In this document: positions 38,580 to 40,915 of the stretch, one piece after another
Position numbering within the stretch: position 1 is the first letter of the stretch
Layout of the letters: every line of letters begins with the position of its first letter
Assembly (NCBI RefSeq): GCF_001998865.1
Contig: NZ_CP019607.1
Coordinates: 3,162,001 to 3,226,000, forward strand
Direction of reading: 5' to 3'
Length of the DNA stretch: 64,000 bases
DNA from: Tessaracoccus flavescens
GTDB taxonomy: Bacteria; Actinomycetota; Actinomycetes; Propionibacteriales; Propionibacteriaceae
Program-made: the position numbers and the translations under genes
The notes under the pieces: generated by a model
The model's input: only the letters and a program-made list of their open reading frames with translations
The model's database searches: none
What the model was told of the DNA's origin: nothing

Positions 38580-39401
38580 TCAGTTCCCGAAAATCTTCCC
38601 CCAGCCCGGGATCTCCAGCTGGGCGAGCTGCTCTCCCACGCTACTGACGTCTTGGCTCAATCCGGCAATCTGGTCCGCTGCTCCGGCGGCGGCCTCAGTC
38701 GCCCCGCCAGCCAGGTCTGCGGCCCCCGTGGTCAGATCCTCGACACCGCTGGTGAAGCCTGCCAGATCGATTGAGCCCGCCAAGGCATCGAAATCGACGC
38801 CGGCGGCGAGGGCTTCACCGAGGAGCGGGGCGGCAACCGCTCTGAGTGCCGCGCCGCCGGCCACGGCGATCAGCAGCCCGCCGCCTGCACCCGCGGCGGC
38901 CGCTCCGAGCCCCTGCCCGGTCATGGCCGCGCCGGGGAGAGGGGTGCGCGCAAGAATCCCAGCTAGGATACCGGGCCGGGCGGCCTCGGCGCGGGTGGCG
39001 GTGCGGGCAAGATCCGCCGGCTGCGACGTGCGTGGGTGCTCTTCGGGGGGTAGTTCGGTGCGGAGTCGCGTGTGGAGCTGGTCGCGCTGTTCCGGGGTGA
39101 GCCGGGCGAACGCTTCCGCATGGATCCGCTCCAGCTGGGCGGGCTCCGCTGTCCGCAGCAGGTAGTCGTAGCGGGCCACTGCCGCACTGGCGGCCGGGTC
39201 GTCCTCCGACGCGGGGGTCGGTCCCACCGGTCGCGAGGCTGCTGCCGGGGGCGCGGCGGACGGGCGTGGGAGCCCCTCGACCGTGCCCCGCAGGGCGCTC
39301 GTCCAATCCGGAGTCTGGCCGCCAGCGGTCTTCGCCGGGGCGGCGGTCTTGTTGTTGAGGGCCTTGTAGGCCAGGCCGCTGAGGCGGTCGAACAGGTTCA
39401 T
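38580..39401 (-). CDS. Hypothetical Ala/Gly-rich protein downstream of terC
   Basis: A 273-residue protein not assigned to a family. It opens NLFDRLSGLAYKALNNK, has a proline/alanine-rich linker, then a helical ARYDYLLRTAEPAQLERIHAEAFARLTPEQRDQL segment (about 78-110), a hydrophobic Gly/Ala-rich stretch (about 148-195, one or two possible membrane segments) and an amphipathic tail with repeated AADLAGG/AAGAADQ. A similar YDYLLR-TPEQR segment occurs in small actinobacterial proteins annotated inconsistently. It follows terC on the same strand after 214 bp that hold nothing I recognise. Confidence 0.6.
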   Translation of the reverse strand: MNLFDRLSGLAYKALNNKTAAPAKTAGGQTPDWTSALRGTVEGLPRPSAAPPAAASRPVGPTPASEDDPAASAAVARYDYLLRTAEPAQLERIHAEAFARLTPEQRDQLHTRLRTELPPEEHPRTSQPADLARTATRAEAARPGILAGILARTPLPGAAMTGQGLGAAAAGAGGGLLIAVAGGAALRAVAAPLLGEALAAGVDFDALAGSIDLAGFTSGVEDLTTGAADLAGGATEAAAGAADQIAGLSQDVSSVGEQLAQLEIPGWGKIFGN

Positions 39402-39615: not shown

Positions 39616-40662
39616 TCAGCCGCCGGAGCGACCGTTCCCCGTCCCCGCGGGCACAGGTGAGCGACGGCCGAAGACGGGCTCGACCGCAGCGAGCTCCTCG
39701 TCGGTGGCGATCCGGAAGGCCCCTGCCGACTCGGCCTGTACTTCGCGTCGACCTTGACCGCGGGTGGCGCGGAGACTGGCGACGATGGACACGGTGATGA
39801 TGCTGGCGACGACGGCGAGGCTGATCGTGGTCGGGATGTAGAGCACGTCCAGCAGCAGCATCTTGATGCCCACCCAGATCAGGACGAACGAGAGCCCGAC
39901 CTTGAGGTAGACGAACCGGTGGATCAGGTCAGCGAGGAGGAAGTACATGGCTCGCAGGCCGAGGATCGCGAACGCGTTGGCGGTGAAGACGAGGAACGGT
40001 TCGCTCGTCACGGCGAAGATCGCCGGGATCGAGTCGACGGCGAAGATGATGTCAGTGATCTCCACCAGCACCAGCACCGCTAGTAGCGGCGTCGCCACCA
40101 CAAGCCCCGCCTTGCGGACCAGGAACTTCTGCCCGTGGTACGCGTCTGTCATCGGCACGAACCTGCGGAACACCTTGAGGATGCGGGACTTCTCAGGATG
40201 GACGTGCTCGTTGCGTGAGCGGAACATCCGCCAGCCGGTGTAGATCAGGAACGCCGCGAAGACATAAAGGACCCACGAGAAGTTCTCGATCAGCGCGGCG
40301 CCGGCGGCGATGAAGATCCCGCGGAAGACCAGCGCACCGAGGACGCCGAGGAACAGCACCCGGTGTTGAAGCTCGCGGGGGACCGCGAAGGCGGCGAAGA
40401 TGATCGCCCAGATGAACACGTTGTCGACGGCGAGGGATTTCTCGATCAGATAACCGGCGAAGTACTGCTGCCCGAATTCCGCGCCCCACAGCGTCCACAC
40501 CAGCACACCGAACGCGACACCGATCGTCACCCACACGATCGACCAGGCGGCGGCTTCCCGAACCCCGATCACGTGGGCCGTGCGGTGGGCGATGAGGTCG
40601 ACGACGAGCATCACCAGGATCACACCCAGGACGGCGAACCAGGCCCAGAGAGGAACAGTCAT
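39616..40662 (-). CDS. TerC/Alx-type membrane protein (likely manganese exporter)
   Basis: A 348-residue polytopic membrane protein with about eight or nine helices. The TerC signatures are present: SLAVDNVFIWAIIF near residue 70 and VEITDIIFAVDSIPAI near residue 200, with acidic residues inside the helices. Members such as E. coli Alx and B. subtilis MeeF/YceF help export manganese. The start is the ATG at 40662 (MTVPLWAWF), with GGAGG 8 nt upstream. A manganese riboswitch precedes the gene, which supports the function independently. The C-terminus has an unusual charged, Gly/Arg-rich tail of about 45 residues. Confidence 0.9.
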   Translation of the reverse strand: MTVPLWAWFAVLGVILVMLVVDLIAHRTAHVIGVREAAAWSIVWVTIGVAFGVLVWTLWGAEFGQQYFAGYLIEKSLAVDNVFIWAIIFAAFAVPRELQHRVLFLGVLGALVFRGIFIAAGAALIENFSWVLYVFAAFLIYTGWRMFRSRNEHVHPEKSRILKVFRRFVPMTDAYHGQKFLVRKAGLVVATPLLAVLVLVEITDIIFAVDSIPAIFAVTSEPFLVFTANAFAILGLRAMYFLLADLIHRFVYLKVGLSFVLIWVGIKMLLLDVLYIPTTISLAVVASIITVSIVASLRATRGQGRREVQAESAGAFRIATDEELAAVEPVFGRRSPVPAGTGNGRSGG

Positions 40663-40670
40663 GACAAAAA

Positions 40671-40773
40671 CCTCCACGAATATCGTGAAGGTCTCATCGG
40701 CCCTCAGGGCCCTGCGCACCGGGTCCCGCAGCGGGACCGTATTGACGATGCGTAGCGAGGATTACTCCCCTTC
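40671..40773 (-). promoter_or_regulatory. yybP-ykoY manganese riboswitch of terC
   Basis: The aptamer spans 40773-40687. On the RNA strand P1 pairs GAAGG (40773-40769) with CCUUC (40691-40687); the conserved loop GGGGAGUA follows the 5' strand, CGUCAAUACGG sits in the other arm, a GUCCCGC/GCGGGAC helix caps it, and GAUGAGACCUUC closes it. These are the hallmark elements of the Mn2+-sensing yybP-ykoY class. Downstream, CCUUCACGA (40691-40683) can pair with UCGUGGAGG (40679-40671), which includes the terC Shine-Dalgarno. Without metal this hairpin would hide the ribosome binding site; metal-stabilised P1 would free it. Confidence 0.88.
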
Positions 40774-40915
40774 GGATCCAATGAGACAGGAATAGTGCCT
40801 CCACGTCAAGTCAGCCAGGTCGGGGCCGCTGAGAAGACCTGTCACAGGACACCCGCAGCGTCGACGCCCTCGTCGGCCAGTGCGTTGCCGGTTTGCCCCG
40901 GACGTTCGGGAAGCC

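Follow-up and report, generated by a model that had tools for sequence, protein, structure and literature searches.

A P2-less yybP-ykoY-type riboswitch aptamer and a competing Shine-Dalgarno hairpin ahead of a TerC/Alx gene in Tessaracoccus flavescens

The terC gene and the parts of its leader

The stretch of DNA analysed here (the window, 64,000 nucleotides of contig NZ_CP019607.1 of Tessaracoccus flavescens) carries on its minus strand, at 39616-40662, a terC gene coding for a 348-amino-acid Alx-type TerC protein (PF03741, E 2.4e-54; TIGR03718, E 2e-123). The best NCBIfam match of this protein is R_switched_Alx with 411.7 bits, at a cut-off of 246.4. On the same strand, 214 nt past the terC stop codon, there is a gene for a 273-amino-acid protein (38580-39401). 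Ahead of terC the minus strand from 40776 to 40684 has the letters and predicted helices of a yybP-ykoY-type (Mn2+) riboswitch aptamer, an assignment supported by the comparisons described below. The letters and coordinates given for this leader in a first-pass annotation, which had been made from the DNA sequence, all proved correct, and its three hallmark strings GGGGAGUA, CGUCAAUACGG and GAUGAGACCUUC were found on the minus strand. The positions of the RNA elements are given below in the 5' to 3' direction of that strand.

The aptamer begins with the 5' strand of P1.1, GAAGG (40773-40769), which, by letter-by-letter checking, pairs with its 3' strand CCUUC at 40691-40687. It is followed by the 5' strand of L1, GGAGUA (40768-40763), invariant in 15 of 15 relatives, and by the 5' strand of P1.2, AUC (40762-40760), which pairs with GAU at 40698-40696; three of the four P1.2 pairs show changes on both sides among the relatives. 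The 5' strand of P3.1, CGCAUCG (40752-40746), pairs with CGGUGCG at 40721-40715, as indicated by the fold and by the covariation of this helix (helix 3). L3, UCAAUAC (40745-40739), overlaps the CGUCA that is invariant in 15 of 15 relatives. The P3.2 hairpin GGUCCCG-CUG-CGGGACC (40738-40722) and the P4 hairpin GGCCC-UGA-GGGCC (40711-40699) were found by folding, and both covary (helices 4 and 6). The 3' strand of L1, GAGA (40695-40692, with AGA invariant in 15 of 15), leads into CCUUC, the putative switching strand, which is common to both alternative helices. In the solved yybP-ykoY aptamers N7 of the invariable L3 adenosine is described as contacting Mn2+ (PMC6754395), and by homology of position A40743 is likely to be the metal-contacting adenosine of L3.

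Downstream of the aptamer lies the Shine-Dalgarno sequence, read as GGAGG (40675-40671), 8 nt ahead of the ATG of terC. A weakly terminator-like run of five U (40670-40666) can be read right behind the hairpin in which the Shine-Dalgarno sequence takes part. An in-frame GTG at 40719 was ruled out as the start of terC, because it falls within P3.1.

A possible promoter, TTGACG (40809-40804) and TCTCAT (40786-40781) separated by 17 nt, precedes the aptamer; similar hexamers were seen by eye in four close relatives, and a strict promoter scan found no promoter at this site. The transcript would start around 40774, so that the terC mRNA would have the aptamer directly at its 5' end or close to it. 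Imperfect inverted repeats (GAAG..CTTC, ACGAA..TTCGT) can be seen by eye between the promoter-like hexamers (40803-40787 in the window) and at the same place in loci L004-L006, L018-L020 and L022; they are weakest in the window. Perhaps these repeats serve as an operator, which would constitute a second level of control.

Conservation, covariation and membership of the yybP-ykoY class

Relatives were gathered by searches with the leader itself and with TerC. The alignment A1 consists of 15 relatives and contains neither the window nor a near-twin that is 98% identical to it; two short leader matches of 28 and 21 bases (L009 and L010) were not used. GGGGAGUA, CGUCA and AGACCU are invariant in all 15. 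The structure made up of P1.1, P1.2, P3.1, P3.2 and P4 fits A1 with 89.2% paired cells, and the pairing collapses once the structure is shifted by one column. There are 40 cells changed on both sides, against a mean of 15.5 in shuffled alignments (none of 500 shuffles was as high), and the covariation score is 0.361 vs. 0.209 in the shuffled controls. In P1.1 one pair is A-U in five and G-C in ten of the 15 relatives, a compensatory change. It must be noted that with A1 only three of five covariation measures exceeded the shuffles: the number of pairs with both-side changes (10) was equalled in 72 of 500 and that of further pair types (21) in 495 of 500. With the larger alignment A3 (42 loci), which was fitted to the structure of the R1 model described next, 171 both-side cells were counted vs. 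48.4 in the shuffled alignments, and each of the five measures was reached by at most one of 500 shuffles.

Two covariance models were built, R1 from the 15 relatives of A1, hence without the window and its near-twin, and R2 from 42 loci, all from outside the order of the window. R1 finds the aptamer in the window with 87.5 bits (E 2e-22; next match in the window E 0.11) and R2 with 72.4 bits (E 1.6e-16; next match E 0.18), the E-values of both models being rough due to a shortened calibration. The E. coli alx leader was found by both R1 (40.0 bits) and R2 (43.2 bits). Because no E. coli or Rfam sequence was used to build the models, this match links the leader in the window with a member of the class whose function has been tested. 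The other tested E. coli member, mntP (L041), was listed by neither model. Of the fetched loci, 12 have a TerC with 68% identity or more and all of these carry the motif upstream of terC, a count that leaves out one further gene at or above this identity (G026:C1); R1 finds the motif in seven of 18 loci with more distant TerC (L023-L040).

The leader thus has the P1.1-L1-P1.2, P3.1-L3-P3.2 and P4 architecture with covariation, L1 (GGGGAGUA with GAGA) between P1.1 and P1.2, L3 with the invariable adenosine between P3.1 and P3.2, a place ahead of a manganese homeostasis gene, and a P1.1 3' strand common to the expression platform. The P2 helix and the four-way junction, reported from crystal structures of yybP-ykoY aptamers (PMC6754395), are missing: in the window AGUA is separated from CGUCA by 15 nt, which is too few for P1.2, P2 and P3.1, so P2 must be absent and the junction three-way. 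The distance from AGUA to GUCA could be measured in 121 of 133 R1 matches and did not exceed 26 nt in 119, which cannot be taken as an independent count since R1 itself prefers short spacing. The lack of P2 is not novel, and we did not treat P2 as a requirement of the class, because the alx aptamer too seems to be P2-less and the Streptococcus pneumoniae mgtA aptamer shares the three-way form. The pneumococcal one, described as a three-way-junction yybP-ykoY aptamer (PMC9495176), differs from that of the window in controlling a Mn2+/Ca2+ ATPase transporter and in being described as acting by transcription activation. A literature search on yybP-ykoY or manganese riboswitches in actinobacteria gave, among the matches listed, no paper on a P2-less actinobacterial branch as such, which is a weak negative.

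The first-pass annotation had proposed a match to the Rfam model RF00080 as a check, and had named its absence as a reason to give up the class assignment. No such match was obtained: cmscan with Rfam 15 and the gathering score as threshold gave none in the window, and at E ≤10 none appeared in 341 bases round the site or in 15 loci whose terC leaders are related. Over the whole genome RF00080 had a single match of 8.4 bits, at another place, and a match of another model (sn3071) at the site, with 15.1 bits far below its cut-off of 40, was dismissed as chance. We did not keep RF00080 as the deciding test, because it proved insensitive. At E ≤1 the alx leader of E. coli K-12 was missing from its matches, E. 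coli mntP scored 41.6 bits, below the cut-off of 45, and among eight loci with the exact motif it listed three (Paenibacillus, Bacillus and Lederbergia), all under the cut-off, and missed five (two Listeria, one Bacillus, one Shewanella and one tenericute). In its printed alignments the paired positions are those of P2, P3 and one further helix; the GGGGAGUA end is unpaired and P1.1 is not modelled. A model that misses tested and exact-motif members and does not describe P1.1 gives only weak evidence by its silence, so the missing match does not refute the class. The element of the window is ordinary for its class, yet it shows how little a missing RF00080 match says. A described counterpart is the cg2157 leader of Corynebacterium glutamicum, likewise an actinobacterial yybP-ykoY element ahead of terC, with a reported RF00080 score of 49.13 bits in the Rfam version of that paper and a 5' end mapped by RNAseq at a distance of 6 nt from the Rfam start (PMC3890552); the model of that time reached cg2157, while that of Rfam 15 reaches neither the window nor the 15 related leaders.

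The competing hairpin and the probable mode of switching

As the first-pass annotation had proposed, CCUUCACGA (40691-40683) can form nine consecutive pairs with UCGUGGAGG (40679-40671) around a 3-nt loop (40682-40680), the sole G:U pair being U40688:G40674. A tenth pair, A40692:U40670, lengthens the stem, and the resulting 10-bp hairpin ACCUUCACGA-UAU-UCGUGGAGGU (40692-40670), also obtained by folding, covers the Shine-Dalgarno sequence. The annotation's description of CCUUCACGA as the 3' strand of P1 needed correction: CCUUC (40691-40687) does form the 5-bp P1.1 with GAAGG, and the remaining ACGA is linker.

The hairpin recurs in related leaders with letters changed on both strands. When each leader's own arm and tail were used, a competing stem of at least eight consecutive pairs was found in 72 of 132 leaders (the 133 R1 matches less one without a usable anchor), while the arms combined with the tails of other leaders reached this length in 425 of 2640 cases (16%) and with shuffled tails in 154 of 2640 (6%). 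The stem therefore looks selected, although these counts cannot be read as probabilities, because the leaders are related by descent. A second match in L015 (25.6 bits) was omitted from the stem and spacing counts. The other 60 leaders stayed below eight consecutive pairs, and some of them, e.g. L014, have bulged stems. An ATG, GTG or TTG lies 4-20 nt past the stem in 58 of the 72 leaders, an uncontrolled figure, as chance alone would give many. With the recurrence of the stem, the covariation and the R1 and R2 matches, the comparative tests bore out what had first been said of the class, of TerC as the regulated gene and of the competing stem.

Taken together, the terC leader most probably acts as an ON-switch of translation that responds to Mn2+ and belongs to the yybP-ykoY class. 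By analogy with the known aptamers, Mn2+ (with Mg2+) would dock L1 (GGAGUA/GAGA) onto L3 (UCAAUAC) and thereby hold the 5-bp P1.1. In the metal-bound RNA CCUUC would be kept paired with GAAGG, GGAGG would be free and terC would be translated. In metal-free RNA the nascent GUGGAGG would invade before transcription had gone on by more than about 17 nt; CCUUC would move into the Shine-Dalgarno hairpin, and initiation at terC would be blocked. The TerC/Alx protein would then export Mn2+ or pass it to exported enzymes. The choice would probably be a kinetic one. When folding of a growing chain was simulated, P1.1 was part of the best structure with the 3' end at 40684-40676 and was lost at 40672. 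In the best fold of the full leader CCUUC is in the Shine-Dalgarno hairpin (-64.7 kcal/mol, vs. -47.8 kcal/mol with P1.1 and P1.2 forced), a difference of about 17 kcal/mol by nearest-neighbour energies. With the masked state so strongly favoured in silico, the switch could stick in the OFF position unless tertiary contacts or kinetics give large help.

It is useful to compare this arrangement with that of E. coli alx, which behaved as a manganese-activated yybP-ykoY riboswitch in reporter assays (PMC9603457). The two leaders have in common GGGGAGUA in L1, GUCAUUACG in L3 and GUGAGACCUU, they precede genes of the same TerC/Alx protein family, alx also seems to be P2-less, and the 3' strand of its P1.1 also takes part in a hairpin farther downstream, GACCUUGCC-GGAA-GGCGAGGUC. 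However, alx has a long P4 and about 80 nt more leader before the start codon, whereas the hairpin of the window sits directly on the Shine-Dalgarno sequence. For E. coli mntP the ribosome binding site was reported to be inaccessible without manganese (PMC11647493). Sharing of the 3' segment of the P1.1 switch helix with an OFF hairpin is also described for Lactococcus lactis yoaB (PMC11087558), which differs from the window in its four-way junction (PMC6754395) and in that its OFF hairpin is an intrinsic terminator.

The last example suggests another reading, namely that intrinsic termination is the main role of the window's hairpin, or a second one, the 10-bp stem being followed by UUUUUG and Mn2+ causing antitermination as in Lactococcus. 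The five U directly behind the Shine-Dalgarno strand are consistent with this, as is the strand sharing, since in L. lactis without Mn2+ the 3' segment of P1.1 is reported to enter the terminator (PMC11087558); moreover, five U are also found in L007 and L008, and L123 has a similar hairpin with five U well before its Shine-Dalgarno sequence. Yet a scan for terminators found none, three close relatives have UCUUU instead of the five U, at least five T within 8 nt past the stem occur in 10 of the 72 leaders (seven of them, the window included, from the order of the window), and the stem overlies the Shine-Dalgarno sequence itself. For the variation in the relatives, the lack of a scan call and the few T-rich tails we put translation first and termination second; a terminator as the main platform is disfavoured by the scan and the T counts, and a terminating role of this hairpin is on the whole unlikely. 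We had also considered that the U-run is kept by pairing with GAGA of L1; this pairing exists in the window, but 51 of the 72 leaders have no such outward extension of the stem, and as GAGA is nearly invariant, the mismatch control cannot judge it. A bolder combination, which we regard as rather improbable, would make the one hairpin both a terminator and a mask of the ribosome site, with Mn2+ gating transcription as well as translation of terC by way of one strand, within a large P2-less actinobacterial branch that is unseen by the current Rfam model, possibly has a metal preference of its own and has a regulon including an uncharacterised protein family.

It is very doubtful that the same fold serves another physiological ligand, either a different divalent ion such as Ca2+ or Mn2+ together with pH, given that UCA of L3 and L1 are intact and the gene families behind related matches are those linked to manganese. 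What could speak for it is that Ca2+ is mentioned as a further ligand of the three-way S. pneumoniae mgtA aptamer (PMC9495176, citing Martin 2019) and that alx is reported to respond to alkaline pH as well (PMC9603457). That the aptamer has decayed, leaving a fixed hairpin that masks the Shine-Dalgarno sequence without any switching, would agree with the far greater stability of the masked state in silico, but is scarcely credible with the L1 and L3 letters intact, the aptamer helices covarying and the motif kept upstream of every fetched terC of high identity. A translational ON-switch responding to Mn2+ accounts best for these observations.

Distribution of related aptamers and the genes behind them

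R1 at E 0.001 had matches in at least 90 of 396 sampled Actinomycetota genomes, and RF00080 at E 0.01 in at least 10 of 246, one of them above the cut-off; both figures are lower bounds, because the surveys used stricter filters and limited candidates. Only one genome (G296) was positive with both models, which indicates that R1, tuned to P2-less aptamers, and RF00080 see different parts of the class. The exact gapped pattern was found in at least 119 stretches of named genomes, the genera including Streptomyces, Microbacterium, Arthrobacter, Paenibacillus, Bacillus, Listeria and Shewanella. A better joint model covering P2-less and P2-bearing aptamers would add many manganese-controlled genes to the annotation of Actinomycetota.

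Genes were assigned by same-strand tblastn within 700 nt behind 109 fetched R1 matches, five weak matches (G188, G329, G362, G431 and G572) being excluded. They code for TerC (57), GDT1 (18), P-type ATPases (16), M48/HtpX (3) and M50 (2) proteins; 13 loci could not be assigned. A protein family scan of the downstream open reading frames, possible at 106 of the 109 loci, gave TerC 41, P-type ATPase 15, GDT1 12, M48 3, M50 2 and sodium/calcium exchanger 2, but undercounts TerC, as 16 TerC loci were taken in the wrong frame; the tblastn recount covers all 109. TerC, GDT1 and PMR1-type ATPases make up the usual manganese regulon. In a subgroup of the loci (L082, L096, L097, L140, L145, L146, L161 and others) L3 is UCGACAUAC or a near variant; these have GDT1-type genes behind the aptamer, and their leader runs on past the hairpin.

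The R1 matches also point to proteins so far without a manganese link. The 273-amino-acid protein encoded behind terC has no Pfam or NCBIfam family above the cut-off, and six loci from outside the order of the window (L066, L074, L182, L200, L205 and L253, including two Microbacterium and one Leucobacter) have a homologue whose start follows the same aptamer at a distance of 45-234 nt, a count that is biased, since the loci were chosen for carrying the aptamer. Several homologues are named cation-transporting ATPase in the databases; no ATPase domain was found in six scanned homologues. The AlphaFold model of the protein has a confident five-helix part (residues ~69-151) and is otherwise of low confidence (mean pLDDT 66.7), and fold comparison gave no PDB match at E 0.001. 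Genes for membrane metalloproteases, HtpX (M48) in L123 (253-1104), L136 (1502-2401) and L139 (1501-2382) and M50 in L059 and L065, stand directly behind R1 matches, a position that is suggestive because HtpX was reported to co-purify with a Bacillus subtilis TerC protein (PMC10550928).
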